A stretch of 10,617 nucleotides of DNA from Desulfatitalea sp. (GTDB taxonomy: Bacteria; Desulfobacterota; Desulfobacteria; Desulfobacterales; Desulfosarcinaceae). The stretch covers positions 1 through 10,617 of the forward strand of contig JABDRH010000551.1 in NCBI GenBank assembly GCA_013041835.1, read 5' to 3'. Made by a program: the position numbers and the translations under genes. Positions 2,813-10,559 of this stretch are shown here, piece after piece. Under the pieces are notes generated by a model. That model had not been told where the DNA came from. It was given only the letters and a program-made list of their open reading frames with translations, and did no database searches. Within the stretch, counting starts at the first letter, position 1, and each line of letters starts with the position of its first letter.

Positions 2813-3436
2813 TCATTGTCCTTTCGCGGGATCGGCTGCCGAAAGGCGCTCAAACTCTTCCGGTGTATTGGCATTGAGGAATGAGTACAGGCCGGGGTCG
2901 GCTTGGCGAATCTGCTGTTCGGATAAGGTTTTCACGCTCACTTGGGAAAAGAAGCCGGTGATTTTGTAAGCGCCGCGGGTGAGGTTGGCCGTGATGGCGG
3001 GCAGGCAGGTTTTGGCATAAACCGCACAAAGGGGTTCATAATAGCCGCCGATAACCGGGATGACCACATCGCTGTGGGGCGTGACGCTGTCCAGCAACAG
3101 TTGAACCAGGGCCGGCTGCAGGAAAGGGGCGTCGCACGGCACCACCAGCGCATGCTGCGCTTCGGCCTGGGCCAGGCCGGCGTGGATGCCGGTCAGGGAT
3201 GTACGTTCCTGAAAAATGTCGGCCACCACTCGAAACGGTCGCCCGGTGAACAGTTCGGGCCGGCGCGTGACCAGTAAAATCTCCGAAAAATACGGGTTCA
3301 GAACTTGGGCGAGCCGGTCGAGCACGGCACGGCCGGCCACTTCGATGAAAGCCTTGTGACGGCCGGCCATGCGTTGGTTGCGGCCGCCGGCCAGGATGAC
3401 GGCACAACAAGAACGGGCGTTTGAGGATACCCTCAT
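2813..3436 (-). CDS. mobA: Molybdenum cofactor guanylyltransferase MobA
   Basis: MobA transfers GMP from GTP to molybdopterin-bound molybdenum, giving the MGD form of the cofactor used by DMSO-reductase-family enzymes; it is cytoplasmic. The 207-residue length fits the family. The N-terminal nucleotide-binding signature LAGG (15-18) is followed by QRM (21-23) and K28, the family's LAGGxSxRMGxxK pattern with a substituted middle. The metal-binding aspartate lies in VVPCDAPFL (D102). The C-terminal YSFLNANTPEEFERL matches the family's FxNxNTPEDL ending. The start ATG (3434-3436) overlaps the moaA stop (3433-3435) by the usual TGA/ATG arrangement, which indicates translational coupling. The fused or adjacent moaA-mobA layout supports a role in Mo/W-enzyme maturation in an anaerobe. 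Confidence 0.94.
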   Translation of the reverse strand: MRVSSNARSCCAVILAGGRNQRMAGRHKAFIEVAGRAVLDRLAQVLNPYFSEILLVTRRPELFTGRPFRVVADIFQERTSLTGIHAGLAQAEAQHALVVPCDAPFLQPALVQLLLDSVTPHSDVVIPVIGGYYEPLCAVYAKTCLPAITANLTRGAYKITGFFSQVSVKTLSEQQIRQADPGLYSFLNANTPEEFERLSAADPAKGQ

Positions 3437-4452
3437 CCGCCGATACCGGCCATTTTGCTCCGCAGACGGCGGTTTTCATTGAACCGCAGCCGATGGCCCC
3501 CTTGTTTGCGGGCAGTCGTTTCGGCAAAGAGCGCCGCGATGTCGTCATCTGTGGCGCCTCGGCGCAGGGGCGTGATCAGGTCCACCTGGTCATCGGAGAG
3601 CAGGCAGGGGCGCAGGTGGCCGTCGGCGGTGAGGCGTATCCGGTTACAGCGGCTGCAGAAATGCGCACTCATGGAGCCGATCAGACCGATCTCACCGGCC
3701 GCGCCAGCCAGGCGAAAGCGCTGGGCCGGTCCGTCGGACGGCTGGTGATCGATGGGCAGCAGTTCTCCCAATTCGGCCACCCGCATTTGAATCTCGTCGA
3801 CGGCCATGAAATTCGGCTGTCCTTGCCGCGGATCGATGCCGATGGGCATGTATTCGATGAAACGCACGTGAAAAGGATATTGCCGCGTCAATAACGCCAG
3901 GGGTTTGATCTGGTCGTCATTGACGCCTCGCATCACCACCGTGTTGATCTTTACCGGGGCCATGCCGGCGGCCTGTGCCGATGTGATGCCTTGCCAGGCG
4001 TCCTCCCAGAGATCTCTTCCGGTGATGCGGCCGAAGGCGTGGGTGTCCAGGGTATCAAGGCTGATATTGATGCGGCCCAACCCGGCCCGGGCCAAGGGCT
4101 GGGCCATGCCGGCCAGCAGGGTGCCGTTGGTCGTCAGGGCAATGTCGTCGAGCCCGGGGATGCGGCAGATGTTCGCCACCAAATCCACGATTCCCCGGCG
4201 GCAAAGGGGTTCGCCACCGGTCAAGCGCACCTTGTCGATGCCCAAGCCGGCGCCGATGCTGACCACGCGGTGAAGCTCCTCCAGGGTCAAAATGGCATGC
4301 TTGGGCAGCCAACGGGTTTCACCGGTCATGCAGTAGCGGCATCGCAGGTTGCACCGGTCGGTGACGGAGACACGCAGATAGCTGACGGTGCGATGGAACT
4401 GGTCCGTCAGGTGAGGGGGTGCATGAAACGGTTGTGCGGGCGTGAAAGTCAT
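3433..4452 (-). CDS. moaA: GTP 3',8-cyclase MoaA (radical SAM)
   Basis: MoaA performs the first step of molybdopterin synthesis, the S-adenosylmethionine-dependent radical rearrangement of GTP to 3',8-cyclo-7,8-dihydro-GTP. The 339-residue protein carries both iron-sulfur sites of the family. The N-terminal radical SAM cysteines are C34, C38 and C41 in TDRCNLRCRYC, and the C-terminal cluster cysteines are C266, C269 and C283 in HFCSRCNRIRLTADGHLRPC. LTGGEPL (77-83) is the SAM-contacting GGEP motif. The protein ends in Gly-Gly, the conserved tail that inserts into the active site. I chose the ATG at 4452 because AAGAG lies six bases upstream; a TTG at 4470 would add six residues but has no visible ribosome site. 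It is the first gene of a moaA-mobA operon. Confidence 0.96.
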   Translation of the reverse strand: MTFTPAQPFHAPPHLTDQFHRTVSYLRVSVTDRCNLRCRYCMTGETRWLPKHAILTLEELHRVVSIGAGLGIDKVRLTGGEPLCRRGIVDLVANICRIPGLDDIALTTNGTLLAGMAQPLARAGLGRINISLDTLDTHAFGRITGRDLWEDAWQGITSAQAAGMAPVKINTVVMRGVNDDQIKPLALLTRQYPFHVRFIEYMPIGIDPRQGQPNFMAVDEIQMRVAELGELLPIDHQPSDGPAQRFRLAGAAGEIGLIGSMSAHFCSRCNRIRLTADGHLRPCLLSDDQVDLITPLRRGATDDDIAALFAETTARKQGGHRLRFNENRRLRSKMAGIGG

Positions 4453-4511
4453 TTCAGGCTCTTGGCGCAAGCCGTGTTAGCGCTCATTTCGGCATCGTGG
4501 TCAGTATTGGT

Positions 4512-4540
4512 TAATATAAACCACTTTTTATGCCACGCAA
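4512..4540 (-). promoter_or_regulatory. Putative sigma70-type promoter of moaA-mobA
   Basis: Read on the minus strand, TTGCGT (4535-4540) and TATATT (4513-4518) are separated by 16 bases. The -10 box matches five of six consensus positions and the -35 box three of six. The -10 box lies inside the small palindrome TGGTT/AACCA (4508-4512 and 4519-4523), which could be an operator. A start of transcription near 4505 would leave a leader of about 55 bases before the moaA ATG. The assignment rests on sequence match alone. Confidence 0.3.
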
Positions 4541-4554
4541 TGGTGCCGCGATCA

Positions 4555-4586
4555 ATCGAATCTTTCTGTTTACCGCGATTCTCGAT
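4555..4586. repeat. Imperfect inverted repeat in the moaA upstream region
   Basis: ATCGAATC (4555-4562) can pair with GATTCTCGAT (4577-4586) with a two-base bulge, leaving a loop of 14 bases. It lies between the end of the C10 peptidase gene and the putative moaA promoter. There is no adjoining T-run on either strand, so a Rho-independent terminator is not supported. It could be a weak structure or a protein site. The stretch from 4453 to 4642 otherwise holds no gene that I can support. Confidence 0.25.
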
Positions 4587-4642
4587 GAAGCGAGCCGGTT
4601 GCGGTGGGTCGGAAAGGCGGACGGATCCCCCCATGTTCCCGG

Positions 4643-6256
4643 TCAATTCAACAGCGTGATAAAACACCCGCCCCCCCCGCCCGAATCCGGAGGTGACGGC
4701 AAGGGGGACGGCAAGACGGTATCCACGTTGCGCACGGTAATGGTGCATTCATCATAGCCCACGCTGTCGTTGGCATCCACCGCTCTAAGGCGAAAGACCA
4801 AGCTGGTATCGGCCGACACGCTGGGAGCGGTAAAACCGGTTGTAGCCGAGGTTTCGTTGCCGATCGTCACCATGGGGCCACTGACCTGTTGCCACTGATA
4901 GGTGGTAACCACAGAAGTTGCAGACGTTGCCTGGCCTGACAGCACGGCGGAAGTTCGTTCATAGATGCTCTGAGGGTCACCGGCTTCCACGACGGGCGGC
5001 AAGCCCGTATCGGGTTCAATGCCCGTGACCATGTACTGCTGTGCCGAACTCCAGGTATAGCCGACGATGGAAAAGTCGTCGCTGATGTCATAGTAGCCGT
5101 CGTAATTGGCCGACCAACCGAAGTTGATATGCACCATGCGCGTGATGTCGTCCTGGTATCCGTCCACCACCACCTCGTGTCCCGAGTCTTGCGTGGTGAA
5201 GATGGAAAAGATCACCGGTCGTGGTTGGCTGACATTCAGCTCGTTTCGAATCAGGTCGAACCATTGTTCCGGCGTGTAGTTGGCGCGGTCGTGAAAATCC
5301 ATGCGCTTGTAACGGAAAAAAATATCCAGCACCTGGTCGGCCCAGGCGGTGCTGGCGGTATCTTGACAACCGAAATCTGAATCGGAAGCCACGGCCAGAT
5401 GATACATCAACAGAGCCACCGCTTGCTTTTCAGCCGCATTGGACGCGGCTGTGAGCTGATCGGGCATATCATCCCACGCATAGGTCGTCTCAAAATCAGC
5501 GGATAGGGTCTGGCCGTTCCATACGTAAGCATGGCTGCCCACGCCTGTGGGGGGCCATTGCCAGTAGTTCAGCACCTGGGCCCAGGCCGTGGCCACACAA
5601 CCGGTAAGGGTGTGGCCGGCGACGCAGTTGTCGTCGGGCGTCATCAAGTTGTAGGGCGTGTCCTGGTCCCAAGCGGTGGTAAGCAGTGGACCGACGACAG
5701 CGGCGCGCTGCATCGATGGCCGCGCGGCAGCGGCTGATTTCAATGCACCGTCCGATGGGTCGGTCAAAACGGCCCAGGCCCGGGCGATGCGACCTTCGGC
5801 AGCCACCGGCTGAACTGTCCGGGCGGAGAGCCGGACGCGTGTCAGGGCATGAATCTTGCCGCTCAATTCGGGCACGATCCAGGAGGCAATGGACCTAGTA
5901 TCATCGGAAAACGCCGATTCTAGAGCGGCCCGTGTGGAATAAAGCTGTACCGGGCTGAGTTGATCGTCCAGGGCAACCGTGACATGGCCGCTGGGGTCGA
6001 TTTCAAAATTGTAGCCCACATTAACGCCGTCAAACCGGATCACTCGGCCGTTTTTCACCACCGGTGTGGTGCATTGATTCCAATGGCCGAAAAGCGCCAG
6101 GTGGCGGCGCAGGGTATTTGTCGCCACCGTCCGGGCAGTGGCCTGATCCACCGGCGCACTCCATCCGAGCATGACCGTGCCGCAGAGCAACCCCACCGCC
6201 AGCACGACGGCCTTCCAGGGATTTCTAGCGTGAAGGGAATTGAATCTGGTCCGCAT
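4643..6256 (-). CDS. Secreted C10 family (streptopain-type) cysteine peptidase with PKD-like domain and CFI-type C-terminus
   Basis: This is a secreted papain-fold endopeptidase, 537 residues long. Residues 1-34 form a signal peptide (basic start, hydrophobic 16-31, likely cleavage after GWSA). Residues 35-185 fit a streptopain pro-region, the inhibitory propeptide of this family. The catalytic domain (about 190-415) holds the nucleophile C220 in LTGCVATAWAQVLNYW, H360 in SGHEVVVDGY and W381 in HINFGWS, all placed as in SpeB. Residues 420-510 resemble a PKD-like/Ig domain (AGDPQS, YQWQQVSGP, FRLRAVDANDS). A Pro/Ser linker leads to SGGGGGCFITLLN (525-537), like the glycine-rich CFI C-terminal motifs common in deltaproteobacterial exported proteins. 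The ATG overlaps the upstream OB-fold-like gene by 32 bases, so the two are probably co-expressed. The peptidase call is firm. Substrate and the role of the C-terminus are unknown. Confidence 0.93.
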   Translation of the reverse strand: MRTRFNSLHARNPWKAVVLAVGLLCGTVMLGWSAPVDQATARTVATNTLRRHLALFGHWNQCTTPVVKNGRVIRFDGVNVGYNFEIDPSGHVTVALDDQLSPVQLYSTRAALESAFSDDTRSIASWIVPELSGKIHALTRVRLSARTVQPVAAEGRIARAWAVLTDPSDGALKSAAAARPSMQRAAVVGPLLTTAWDQDTPYNLMTPDDNCVAGHTLTGCVATAWAQVLNYWQWPPTGVGSHAYVWNGQTLSADFETTYAWDDMPDQLTAASNAAEKQAVALLMYHLAVASDSDFGCQDTASTAWADQVLDIFFRYKRMDFHDRANYTPEQWFDLIRNELNVSQPRPVIFSIFTTQDSGHEVVVDGYQDDITRMVHINFGWSANYDGYYDISDDFSIVGYTWSSAQQYMVTGIEPDTGLPPVVEAGDPQSIYERTSAVLSGQATSATSVVTTYQWQQVSGPMVTIGNETSATTGFTAPSVSADTSLVFRLRAVDANDSVGYDECTITVRNVDTVLPSPLPSPPDSGGGGGCFITLLN

Positions 6257-6713: not shown

Positions 6714-6812
6714 CGGGAGCCTCCGTAACAGATGGATCGCTTGGCCCCGGTAAGCGCCCGATCGGGGATGCCGGGCGGCGGCTCGGGACCGATCGCCGCG
6801 TATTGGGGGAAC

Positions 6813-6835
6813 GGGGCGGCTGCCGCAGCCGCCCC
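6813..6835. repeat. Perfect GC-rich inverted repeat
   Basis: GGGGCGGCTG (6813-6822) and CAGCCGCCCC (6826-6835) form a perfect 10-base-pair stem with a CCG loop. No T-run follows on either strand, so it is not a classical intrinsic terminator. It lies about 100 bases upstream of the minus-strand OB-fold-like gene, at the edge of the GC-rich sequence. Confidence 0.7.
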
Positions 6836-6848
6836 GCCGGCTAAAGGA

Positions 6849-6869
6849 AGATATATTGGAACTATATCT
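6849..6869. repeat. AT-rich inverted repeat
   Basis: AGATATA (6849-6855) and TATATCT (6863-6869) are exact reverse complements around a seven-base loop TTGGAAC. A second short pair, AGGCT/AGCCT (6873-6877 and 6887-6891), follows at once. The two could be parts of one folded RNA or a protein-binding site; neither can be shown from sequence alone. Confidence 0.5.
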
Positions 6870-7041
6870 CAAAGGCTCCCCCGCGAAGCCTCTAAATCTG
6901 AATATCGGATGAAGGCGGAAAAACTTTAGCAGGGTTCACCTTTTTCGACACATGGCCAAAGCCTGTCCCCCCGGAATACTGTTCCGAAGAAAGAAGTCTT
7001 GGATAATATTCGGAAATAGTATATCATCGGGACCGATTTGA

Positions 7042-7102: not shown

Positions 7103-9226
7103 GTGTACTTGCTTGAACTGTATTTTGAAAATGCCGCGCTGAACGGACGCGGAAAATTCGTAATCCAACACCGGGACACAATCCGAAAATGGACGTTGCT
7201 GGGTGCTAAAAAATCTGGTCTCGAAATCCTGCGCCTGATTGCCTTGGCCACCGCCAAACCGGATTGTATCCCCCACCTGAATTCCCCAATAACACCATTA
7301 TTCAAGATAGTTCAGAGGCCGCTTCAACTTGAATATCAGATTTTTCGACATAAGCAGACAGAAGGCCTTGGCCGGTATCCCGATGCTTCAGCGGCCGGCG
7401 GTCTTTCCATTGCACACGATAAAATCCCGACCATACTCTCCCGACGGGAATGCCGATATGTAAAGGGCTCGCCTCGCTATTACCGCCCGAGAAATTCAAA
7501 GAACCTGGGCATACATTTCCTGCTGGCATATGGTCCCGGCTTTCAGGGGCTCGTATCTTCGGACGATTTTGAATTCAATGATCCCTTTCATCGTCTTAGA
7601 AGGATTCAAAGTTTATTCATCGAAAATTATTGCCTGACCAACCCGGTCGATTTTCTCGAGTTGATACAATACCGCGGGCTAAAGTATAAGCGGTTGAGTG
7701 CATTACGGGTCATGACGGAAGTCAATCAGTTCTTTAACACTTGCCTTGGGATTGATCCGATGTTTCTTCATTCTCCTGACCTCGAACTTCATCCCATTTG
7801 GCGCAAGCTATCGCCCTGGCGACAACGGATGGCCATACCTGTCATCGATATCTGCCGACACCTGTATGAAACGTTTCCAAAAACCGCCAATCCATTCCCA
7901 ATGCCGGGTGTTATGCTTTTCCACCGGCCGGATCTCTTTTGCACGGATAAGCGTTTTGTCTCCTGGATTCATTTCCTGGATTCACTTCTTCCCAATTTTC
8001 AATTCATCATCACTCTTGCTGACCGAAATGCGGAGAAAATCCCACCTGCAATAACTAAAAAGCGGCTGCCAATCGGCAAGACGGAAGGTGATTCCAAACG
8101 GATAAGAAGAAAACCTGCGCGTCTCCCGACCAAGCCGGTTCTCCTTGTTCAAGTGGACGGAAAACTCCCCAATCTCGCATTGATGAAATTGAGCCGGTAT
8201 CACAAAGAGCAGGGAAAAGAAGTGATATTGAAACGCCGCGGCGCATTTTACCGGAATGCCGAGAGGGTTTACGCCAGCACTATCTTCAATTTCGGAAGCT
8301 CCGTGCAATACTTGCAGCAACTGAGAAAATACTATGGAGACGCCTTGCAGGTTGGCGGTTCCGGCGTGGATTTAAGCCTTCGTCTACCGAAAAAAATCGA
8401 GCGTATGCCGGCCGATTACACCCTTTACCCTGAATTGGAGGATCGCGCCATTGGTTTTGTAACGCGGGGATGCCCGCATCGCTGCCCGTTTTGTATTGTG
8501 CCGGAGAAAGAGGGGCATCCGCGCAAAGTGAACAGCATCCGCTCCCTTGTAGACAAAAACAGGAAAAAAGTGATCCTGCTGGATGACAACCTGTTGTCTC
8601 ATCCAGAAGCAACCGATATCTTAAAAGAAATTGCATCTTTGAATCTGAAGGTCAATTTTACCCAAAGCCTTGATATGCGGTATCTTAACCAGGCAAAAGC
8701 GGAACTGCTGAAAAAAATCGACTGCATGAACACCAAATTCACACGTCCCAACCATTATTTCAGTTTGAACGACAACAAGCGGTTCAAAACCATCCGGCAA
8801 AAATATCAAATGCTTGGCTTTACCTATCGGGATAACGTCGAATTTATCTGCATGTACGGATTCAACACCACACTGGCGCAGGACCTTGAGCGGATTCGCT
8901 TCCTTCGCTCTCTCCCGGGCGCCTATGTCTTTATGCAAGAATACAAGCCGGTGAATAACATCGTATCCTCTCATGATGGTCAATTCTTCGAAGGTGATGT
9001 TGATCGGATGCTCGACGAACTTGTTCGTATCGTTTTCACTCAGAATATGAAAAGCATGGAAAAATATTACAAGTGGATCAGCCGAAAATATGCGCAACGG
9101 TATAATCGATTGCATCACGGATTGGTGGATACCATTTTCAAATACAACAACAGAAGCCAGAAAGGACTTTACATTGCTACGTTGGCTGGAACACGAAACG
9201 GACCCGCAGGATCAAAGGCTGGGTAA
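7103..9226 (+). CDS. Degenerate AAA/ABC-type ATPase domain fused to B12-binding-like and radical SAM domains
   Basis: This is a 707-residue protein of unknown function. Residues 1-310 follow the layout of SMC-like AAA ATPases: MYLLELYFEN start, KWTLLGAKKSGLEILRLIAL (29-48) where Walker A belongs, FLLAYGP (139-145), KLSPWRQR (235-242) at the signature, PGVMLFHRPDLF (268-279) at Walker B, and LPNFQFIITLADR (296-308) at the H-loop. The Walker A lysine, the Walker B Asp-Glu and the H-loop histidine are all replaced. After a basic linker (311-343), PVLLVQVDGKLPNLALMKLSR (345-365) begins a Rossmann-like domain resembling the B12-binding fold. The radical SAM domain (about 450-615) has the cluster cysteines C457, C461 and C464 in RGCPHRCPFC, then VILLDDNLL and NFTQSLDMR. 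The GTG at 7103 is preferred over the GTG at 7082: GGAG lies ten bases upstream and the protein then starts as ATPase relatives do. GC is lower than in the left half. It overlaps the next gene by 53 bases. Confidence 0.8.
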   Translation: MYLLELYFENAALNGRGKFVIQHRDTIRKWTLLGAKKSGLEILRLIALATAKPDCIPHLNSPITPLFKIVQRPLQLEYQIFRHKQTEGLGRYPDASAAGGLSIAHDKIPTILSRRECRYVKGSPRYYRPRNSKNLGIHFLLAYGPGFQGLVSSDDFEFNDPFHRLRRIQSLFIENYCLTNPVDFLELIQYRGLKYKRLSALRVMTEVNQFFNTCLGIDPMFLHSPDLELHPIWRKLSPWRQRMAIPVIDICRHLYETFPKTANPFPMPGVMLFHRPDLFCTDKRFVSWIHFLDSLLPNFQFIITLADRNAEKIPPAITKKRLPIGKTEGDSKRIRRKPARLPTKPVLLVQVDGKLPNLALMKLSRYHKEQGKEVILKRRGAFYRNAERVYASTIFNFGSSVQYLQQLRKYYGDALQVGGSGVDLSLRLPKKIERMPADYTLYPELEDRAIGFVTRGCPHRCPFCIVPEKEGHPRKVNSIRSLVDKNRKKVILLDDNLLSHPEATDILKEIASLNLKVNFTQSLDMRYLNQAKAELLKKIDCMNTKFTRPNHYFSLNDNKRFKTIRQKYQMLGFTYRDNVEFICMYGFNTTLAQDLERIRFLRSLPGAYVFMQEYKPVNNIVSSHDGQFFEGDVDRMLDELVRIVFTQNMKSMEKYYKWISRKYAQRYNRLHHGLVDTIFKYNNRSQKGLYIATLAGTRNGPAGSKAG
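9160..9166 (+). promoter_or_regulatory. Ribosome binding site that decides the DruA-like start
   Basis: GAAAGGA lies inside the end of the radical SAM gene, seven bases or so before an in-frame TTG at 9174. The first ATG of this frame, at 9090, has no such site and would lengthen the overlap to 137 bases. The site therefore favours the TTG start and implies translational coupling of the two genes. Confidence 0.5.
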
Positions 9227-10559
9227 TCGGGAAAAGGTGCGGAAGAAAATACAACAAATTGTAAAATCTTCCAAAGATCGCATCCGCCTGGAAGCTATCG
9301 CCCGCAGCCGAAACCTGGGCATCTGGCGCATCAAACGCGCAAAAATTATTTTGAACACGATAGATGGTGAAAACGTAAGGCGGATCGTACTTAATGTACG
9401 GGTGCCACCTGAATCGATCATAAAATGCCAAGATCGATTTGCGCAAATCGGATTCGCATATTTTAATAAACCTGAACGGAAACCAACGGCACGGGAAGTC
9501 CGTGTAGAAAAAATGCTGGCGTTTCTTGAAAACCCCCCGTCAAAACGTTCAAGCAAATGGCAATCCACCGTTGTGCGCTATATCGGTAATGATTATGTGG
9601 CAAAGGATATTCAACAAATCCGGGATCTTATTTCCGATCCTGATTCATCAACAACTGAAATAGCCCGCCAGGTGTGCAGGCGGTTTAATCTTCAACAGGC
9701 CAACGGCAAACCGCAACTGACGCAAACACAACACGCCCTCAGGCGAATGGATATGGATAACATAATTGAACTCCCGCCCCGAAAAAATGTAAGACAAAAC
9801 AGTCGAAAGCGTTTAGTCACCGCTAAGCTTTGGGAAACAAATTTCAAACCGGTTCGGCTGAAGACGGCTGAAATCAAAAACCTGCAATTGATTCCGGTCC
9901 AATCAAAAGCGGATAGACAACGCTGGAGTACGTTAATTAGCCAATTTCACTATATTAAAACCACGCGGCTTTTTGGCGCCCAAATGCGTTATCTGGTTTA
10001 TGGGGATTCGCATCTATCAGGTACGCTCAACATAGCAAAGCGATCACCTTTCGAATCTGAAAGGTATTGGGCGAGTCGATACATGCAAATAAAGCGCGGC
10101 AATATTTTGTTGGGGGCTTTGGGCTTTGCGTCTTCCGCATGGCGCTTGACCAGTCGCGACCGACACATTAATTGGACGGACGAGGTGCGGACAGCCAATC
10201 TAAAATATGTCGTCAATAACGTTCGCTTTTTAATTTTGCCCTGGATCCATTCAAAATATCTGGCATCGAGAATACTCGGACAAATCGCCAGGCAACTCCC
10301 CTTTGATTGGGAGGCCCGGTATGGTTACCGACCTGTCCTGCTAGAAACATTTGTCCAAACCGATCGGTTTAAGGGAACATGCTACAAAGCCGCCAACTGG
10401 ATCAAAATCGGAACGACCGGGGGCTATAGCCTATCTTCTGTGTATAAGAAAGATGTCCCAACAAAGGATATATATATTTATCCTTTGCGAAAAAATTACC
10501 GTGAAATCCTATCAAGCCGTTGCTCCGAGCCAAGCAATCGCATTCGCACGCAGGGATGA
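9174..10559 (+). CDS. DruA-like DUF4338 protein with IS630-type helix-turn-helix N-terminus
   Basis: This 461-residue protein belongs to the DUF4338 family, whose known member DruA is a component of the Druantia anti-phage system; its biochemistry here is unknown. Residues about 35-95 look like the helix-turn-helix start of IS630 transposases (IWRIKRAKIILNTIDGENVRR, then a second helix near SIIKCQDRFAQIG). Residues 145-205 match the winged-helix-like segment usual in DruA-type proteins (TEIARQVCRRFNLQQANGK, then IIELPPRK). The DUF4338 core spans about 250-415: STLISQFHYI, MRYLVY, LLGALGFASSAWRLTSRDR, INWTDE, VVNNVRFLILPW, YRPVLLETFV, and FKGTCYKAANW with its conserved cysteine C403. A stretch of about 34 residues (275-308) interrupts the core between MRYLVY and LLGALGF. 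The ending KDIYIYPL is also family-like. Start TTG at 9174 is inferred from the ribosome site. Druantia genes B-E are absent, so this is an orphan or a different system. Confidence 0.82.
   Translation: MLRWLEHETDPQDQRLGNREKVRKKIQQIVKSSKDRIRLEAIARSRNLGIWRIKRAKIILNTIDGENVRRIVLNVRVPPESIIKCQDRFAQIGFAYFNKPERKPTAREVRVEKMLAFLENPPSKRSSKWQSTVVRYIGNDYVAKDIQQIRDLISDPDSSTTEIARQVCRRFNLQQANGKPQLTQTQHALRRMDMDNIIELPPRKNVRQNSRKRLVTAKLWETNFKPVRLKTAEIKNLQLIPVQSKADRQRWSTLISQFHYIKTTRLFGAQMRYLVYGDSHLSGTLNIAKRSPFESERYWASRYMQIKRGNILLGALGFASSAWRLTSRDRHINWTDEVRTANLKYVVNNVRFLILPWIHSKYLASRILGQIARQLPFDWEARYGYRPVLLETFVQTDRFKGTCYKAANWIKIGTTGGYSLSSVYKKDVPTKDIYIYPLRKNYREILSSRCSEPSNRIRTQG
10462..10487. repeat. Inverted repeat inside the end of the DruA-like gene
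   Basis: CAAAGGATA (10462-10470) and TATCCTTTG (10479-10487) are exact reverse complements around an eight-base AT loop. It lies within codons for the family-like segment KDIYIYPL, so it may be a by-product of coding. It is still the strongest AT-rich stem in the right half of the window. Confidence 0.4.

Follow-up and report, generated by a model that had tools for sequence, protein, structure and literature searches.

The 10,617-nucleotide stretch of Desulfatitalea sp. DNA analysed here (hereafter the window), which makes up the whole of contig C163 in a draft genome of 4.3 Mb, carries two overlapping plus-strand genes that constitute a real, widespread and probably enzymatic pair, which is not Druantia and for which a defence role is not demonstrated. 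Gene 1 ('RS'; 7103..9226) encodes a fusion of a PtuA-like pseudo-ATPase with a radical S-adenosylmethionine (SAM) domain and gene 2 (9174..10559) encodes a long-form DUF4338/DruA-family protein with a Mom-like fold. The pair is tentatively proposed, at somewhat less than even chances, to be a candidate laterally spreading module for nucleic-acid base modification, in which a Mom-like transferase is paired with a radical SAM enzyme. Each gene has a large family of homologs at E<=0.001 (at least 567 for gene 1 with 7995 candidates scored and at least 5462 for gene 2 with 7998 scored) and thus neither is a chance open reading frame (ORF); most of the 120 gene 1 homologs listed span at least 93% of gene 1. 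Literature searches for DUF4338, for DUF4338 with radical SAM and for PtuA with radical SAM did not find the pair described, and the last of these returned no paper on PtuA together with radical SAM.

The gene 1 product comprises 707 amino acids from a GTG start and was aligned with 39 relatives of 44-62% identity. The ORF of gene 2 is open from the ATG at 9090 and its stop ends at 10559, 58 bp before the right end of the window. The TTG at 9174 is preferred as its start (461 amino acids), since many of the aligned relatives begin with '(L/M)LRWLEPEN' and a likely ribosome site, GAAAGGA (9160..9166, plus strand), lies within gene 1 seven bases ahead of it. The overlap of the two genes is 53 nt from this TTG and would be 137 nt from the ATG. 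The G+C content is 0.44-0.50 from position 7001 onward, compared to 0.54-0.65 left of 6750. Both the overlap at a lower G+C than the left flank and the internal ribosome site had been described in the first-pass annotation of the window, and both hold.

The N-terminal part of gene 1 (residues 1-319; 7103..8059, plus strand) is an ABC/SMC-type ATPase head that matches PtuA, known from Septu and type I-A retrons, both by profile and by fold (fold search of residues 1-320). In contrast to PtuA, its ATPase motifs are lost and it is fused to a radical SAM domain. The signature Gly, the Walker B Glu and the H-loop His are missing in all the 40 aligned proteins, with the Walker B Glu position occupied by Arg in 36, Cys in three and Ser in one, and the Walker A region shows no conservation; the dead-ATPase scaffold postulated earlier is supported. 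No recurrent neighbour cluster of the PtuB HNH nuclease or of a reverse transcriptase was seen, these having been looked for in only some of the loci. Septu cleaves tRNATyr according to PMC13096335, which suggests that PtuA-type heads operate in nucleic-acid complexes.

The C-terminal part of gene 1 (residues 343-683; 8129..9151, plus strand) is a radical SAM domain of the B12/MiaB type. The Pfam Radical_SAM model matches with an E-value of 1.7e-6 and 28.7 bits, slightly below its cut-off of 29.5, and the cysteines of the CxxxCxxC motif (C457, C461 and C464), located within the radical SAM fold, are kept in 40 of the 40 proteins. A fold search with residues 343-650 places the domain close to MiaB, MTAB and MgmA. 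The fold resembles both the B12-type and the MiaB-type enzymes, with which the protein has in common a Rossmann-like part joined to the radical SAM core, and this agrees with the kind of enzyme first suggested, while the NCBIfam radical SAM models lie far under their cut-offs (best 19.3 of 360 bits). Viperin is absent from the NCBIfam and PADLOC matches of the window proteins, no direct comparison with viperins having been made. MiaB methylthiotransferases possess a second [4Fe-4S] cluster and a TRAM domain. Two additional cysteines of gene 1, at residues 541 and 583, are kept in 39 of the 40 relatives and might serve a second cluster or include a catalytic Cys.

By sequence, the nearest family of gene 1 is phrog_9298 (1e-58), composed of phage radical SAM proteins, the examined members of which are about 300-345 amino acids long and, unlike gene 1, have no PtuA head. 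Matches to gene 1 were present in 14 phage records, in the radical SAM part only, and in 11 plasmid records; gene 2 was matched in two plasmid records and in no phage record, and all the plasmid matches are partial. No relative of gene 1 was found in IMG/VR, and a DNA-level search of the plasmid records with the module gave no match. The head-less radical SAM relatives (phrog_9298; records H1-H25) belong to phages of Bacteroides and Methanomassiliicoccales and to plasmids, and lie near DNA methyltransferase genes in two phages and near RtcB in one.

Gene 2 belongs to the Pfam family DruA (PF14236; E-value 2.4e-36, 125.8 bits against a cut-off of 27). Its N-terminus is helical and resembles a helix-turn-helix (HTH), the match to HTH_29 being weak (E 0.057); the DUF4338 partner postulated at the outset is supported in this form. 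The C-terminal domain (9864..10520, plus strand; residues 259-477 as numbered from the ATG at 9090) has a GNAT fold closest to that of phage Mu Mom, which is the best structural match of residues 259-471, while a sequence search with this part gave no match in PDB. The Pfam Mom model (PF25680) does not match the window protein, and three of the five short DUF4338 relatives tested match it with E-values of 0.00043, 0.0025 and 8.8e-5 (18.0-22.7 bits, under the cut-off of 27.1). The positions of S, Y and N of Mom are invariant in the gene 2 family (37 of 37) and that of H is kept in 36 of 37, whereas the invariant D of Mom is replaced by Q in 35 and by N in one. Gene 2 differs from Mom by its long helical N-terminal part, the Q for D and its radical SAM partner gene. 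As judged by alignment, with two readings of Mom offset from each other by ten codons, the Ser of gene 2 corresponds to that of the 'inactive mutant S124A' named in the title of 8bv8. According to PMC7824862, Mom moves an acyl group onto N6 of adenine; the same text, citing another work, mentions GNAT proteins coupled with an ABC ATPase as predicted base-acylating systems. The window pair shares with these predicted DNA-modification systems the link between a GNAT and an ABC-type ATPase; its ATPase, however, is a dead one joined to a radical SAM domain.

Linkage of the two genes was examined at 76 gene 1 loci obtained by a pattern-based scan of GTDB genomes (L066 and L067 being one contig in two assemblies). 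A first sign of it was provided by at least ten longest-contig sizes common to the best-120 lists of both genes (5719, 4548, 6155, 20513, 10144, 6465, 5814, 6019, 4146 and 4854). Gene 2 matches (E<=1e-3) were found in 22 of the 76 loci, 19 downstream and three upstream of gene 1, overlapping or abutting it in many loci, and the pair recurs in unrelated genomes, which supports the interpretation offered at the outset. Seven of the 22 matches are broken or partial (L005, L007, L013, L024, L026, L031 and L062, with L013 at the significance limit), while gene 1 is a single open frame in all seven loci. Where at least 1400 bp follow gene 1 (61 loci), gene 2 is downstream in 18 and on either side in 19. 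The long form of gene 2, recognised by its match to the A2 profile in the N-terminal region, was detected in five of 146 order-level genomes (G000, G069, G090, G091 and G092, in pieces in G090 and G091), always beside gene 1; some of these genomes probably underlie loci among the 76. Gene 1 proper (E<=1e-140, head-less and fragment matches being excluded) is present in eight of the 146 genomes and in six of 395 genomes of the phylum, a sample that partly overlaps the former. In the latter sample the long form occurs only in the window genome and five of the six gene 1 genomes are without it. A DUF4338 gene (E<=1e-20) accompanies gene 1 in eight of eight genomes of the 146, compared to 35 of the 138 others, and in four of six genomes of the phylum sample, compared to 39 of the 389 others; in this comparison the linked cases account for five of the eight, and the general load of mobile DNA is a confounder. 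In L007, L018 and L061, gene 2 is separated from gene 1 by a small gene of 131-135 amino acids, which in L061 encodes an ASCH domain (Pfam E 9.5e-9). PUA/ASCH domains are regarded in PMC7641849 as binders of nucleic acids and modified bases.

In the mechanism envisaged, gene 2 would act as a Mom-type acyl- or aminoacyl-like transferase of the GNAT fold, with its helical, HTH-like N-terminus binding nucleic acid, and gene 1 as a radical SAM enzyme belonging to the clan of MiaB/B12-type proteins, in which the dead PtuA head may be a nucleic-acid-binding scaffold and not a motor. The two proteins, probably produced jointly from their overlapping genes, would have a nucleic acid target in common, where gene 2 may attach a group to a base that gene 1 may then elaborate. 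This order is suggested by analogy with a two-step adenine modification, at N6 and then at C2, that finishes with MiaB; the substrate of MiaB-type enzymes in tRNA is adenine modified at N6. As Septu cuts tRNATyr and MiaB-type enzymes act on tRNA, tRNA would be as good a target as DNA. A bolder version, rated as somewhat less likely than the module itself, is that of a two-enzyme hypermodification system, in which the Mom-like transferase and the radical SAM enzyme on a dead PtuA/SMC-type clamp make a new base in DNA or tRNA and which crosses phyla almost as a bare gene.

The phyla are intermixed in a tree built from 68 proteins of gene 1 (with the window protein included and L067 and the short or partial pieces left out), and all 13 rows of Verrucomicrobiota cluster in a single group together with two unassigned rows. 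Loci with gene 2 are found to either side of the tree's midpoint split, which suggests that the pairing is old and that loss is frequent. Purifying selection is evident for both genes. For gene 1, 17 pairs gave ratios of nonsynonymous to synonymous substitution rates (dN/dS) of 0.10-0.31, with a saturated dS for the lowest value; the 13 pairs without gene 2 give 0.17-0.31, with the one saturated pair at 0.10, and solo copies of gene 1 are thus under selection. For gene 2, the values in two pairs are 0.32 and 0.20. Ten further genomes of this genus gave weak matches at most.

Gene 1 moves laterally. Copies from different assemblies with nucleotide identities of 80-95% have unrelated flanks, and in several pairs the similarity ends near the gene. 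Measured from the aligned gene 1 core (the first Met codon to approximately the last conserved codon), it stops 24-30 bp ahead of the core and 21-50 bp beyond it in L006/L008/L010, 45 bp before and 11-14 bp after in L017/L071, 11 bp before and 7 bp after in L046/L060, and about 30 bp before and 44 bp after in L057/L058. More of the flank is common to L045/L046, L055/L057 (on the right side), L021/L023, L020/L025 and L007/L018; L004/L005 was left out of the comparison, L005 retaining a gene 2 remnant. Terminal inverted repeats were not seen at the gene 1 loci, and no signal of target-site duplication was obtained at 55 loci (mean longest shared word 6.36, compared to 6.15 by chance). Flank repeats of some kind occur in 18 of 75 loci. 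Repeats near the gene 1 stop were rejected as a mobility signal, being present in four of 69 cases compared to 16 of 460 beside other genes, that is, without enrichment, and a repeat common to the L006 and L017 flanks in inverted order was matched in those two loci only. The search for empty sites gave no clean junction: relatives of the window from the same genus have an 86-bp block (6808-6893) followed by other sequence, and the synteny with contig C586 differs. The left flank of L058 is 93% identical to a region of another genome that continues into an ORF read by eye as ribosomal protein S21; L058 itself has about 480 bp of other DNA after the left flank and its right flank maps to a different contig, indicating a rearrangement and not a clean insertion. 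For L008 no left-flank match was found, and the right flank of L017 gave short matches only.

The short relatives of gene 2 are themselves associated with mobile DNA (loci L185-L203 of G023 and G077; L166; L183). In G023, a single-contig genome, a 2459-bp element is present in eight copies of 99.8-100% identity with the inverted ends GGGTG(T/C)AA(A/T)CCCA, and direct repeats of 8-9 bp were observed at the seven copies whose junctions were examined; a second element of 2781 bp has three copies, with 9-bp repeats at two. These two kinds serve as the positive control for the test of terminal repeats and target duplications. A third kind, in G077, has several near-identical copies, with ends not delimited. 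In all three the first ORF encodes a DUF4338 protein of about 300 amino acids that overlaps or abuts the transposase ORF, the partner transposases being of the ISKra4, DDE_Tnp_1-associated and IS66 types, and two DUF4338 fusions carry transposase parts of the IS4/Tn5 and IS701 types. DUF4338 proteins thus seem to accompany mobile DNA as Mom-like partners, with five transposase types in all; the literature coverage of DUF4338 is sparse and a prior report elsewhere is possible. As in the window, a gene of the gene 2 family adjoins a larger partner ORF in these insertion sequences; unlike the window pair, two of the three kinds have inverted repeats and target duplications of 8-9 bp. In L048, gene 1 is flanked by a pair of genes that are related to each other but have diverged (3209-5965 and 8636-11393), the second of which joins RNase_H_2 and IS66 transposase domains in a Pfam scan of that gene.

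The chief difficulty for a joint module is that most loci retain gene 1 alone. No gene 2 match was found in 54 of the 76 loci; among the 61 loci in which gene 1 is followed by at least 1400 bp, 42 are without one. Gene 1 by itself may be the functional unit, acting alone as a modification enzyme for nucleic acid (perhaps tRNA) and retained by selection, with gene 2 as an ancestral, dispensable partner lost many times. This is consistent with the open gene 1 beside broken or partial gene 2 copies, the occurrence of gene 2 on both sides of the tree, the dN/dS values of pairs without gene 2 and the tRNA cleavage by Septu, but the restriction of the long form to the neighbourhood of gene 1 (five of five genomes), in overlapping or abutting order in many loci, argues for a shared task, and a solitary enzyme is considered rather unlikely. 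For the joint system proposed earlier the outcome is split: gene 1 is mostly solo, but the long form of gene 2 was seen only beside gene 1. The short DUF4338 genes that lead or are fused to transposases, the patchy distribution of gene 1 and the abrupt ends of similarity around its copies are also what would be expected of a mobile-element core, in which gene 2 is derived from an accessory protein family of insertion sequences and gene 1 stands in the place of the transposase. However, the terminal repeats forecast for such a core were not found, target duplications gave no signal, repeats beside gene 1 are not enriched, the single traced flank is rearranged and there are only one or two gene 1 copies per genome in the loci found, making this explanation improbable.

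An anti-phage defence system, the other role envisaged initially, is likewise given a low probability. Relatives of PtuA and DruA are defence proteins, and the patchy distribution and moderate dN/dS would fit such a role, as would some neighbours that match PADLOC models, but the neighbourhoods consist mostly of ordinary chromosomal genes. From 196 neighbours (120-900 amino acids, within 6 kb, at most three per locus), 120 were scanned, all from L004-L060; the commonest Pfam families match three or two members and represent transport, regulators and other ordinary genes. The commonest PADLOC models (mad2, mad3, mad8 and DrmD, among the 25 listed of 60 families) match two members each, and AbiEii, DpdE, DpdF, ZorD and others match one. 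Two of seven longer neighbour ORFs have defence-type matches, the one in L024 to PDC-S60 and the one in L040 to kinase-type models. The recurrent neighbour clusters scanned, besides gene 2 and the ASCH-type gene, consist of histidine kinases and ABC transporters, whose distances vary. Some defence-type genes are thus present nearby, but they do not amount to a consistent defence island, with no background rate for comparison. Membership of Druantia is not supported: although DruA of Druantia and gene 2 belong to the same Pfam family, the partner is different, the PADLOC DruA model matches gene 2 weakly (E 0.0063), and no Dru gene was found among the PADLOC families listed for the 120 neighbours or in the seven long ORFs, nor was a recurrent Dru-type neighbour cluster seen; the window itself shows the left side only.

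A conserved structured leader was observed on the minus strand (6808-6921), with a closing CUAAAG/CUUUAG stem, two hairpins and a strong terminator-like hairpin. It is kept in the window and in six regions of same-genus genomes, precedes minus-strand genes and is a candidate riboswitch-like element; no Rfam match was obtained at the gathering threshold.

If the base-modification module holds, it would link Mom-type modification of bases with the chemistry of radical SAM enzymes and would represent the reuse of a defence ATPase fold as a dead scaffold. It predicts a modified nucleoside of a new kind for a protein family whose only label is that of an anti-phage system, and suggests that DUF4338/DruA may at root be a Mom-like enzyme accompanying mobile DNA, which would alter the view of the DruA of Druantia.

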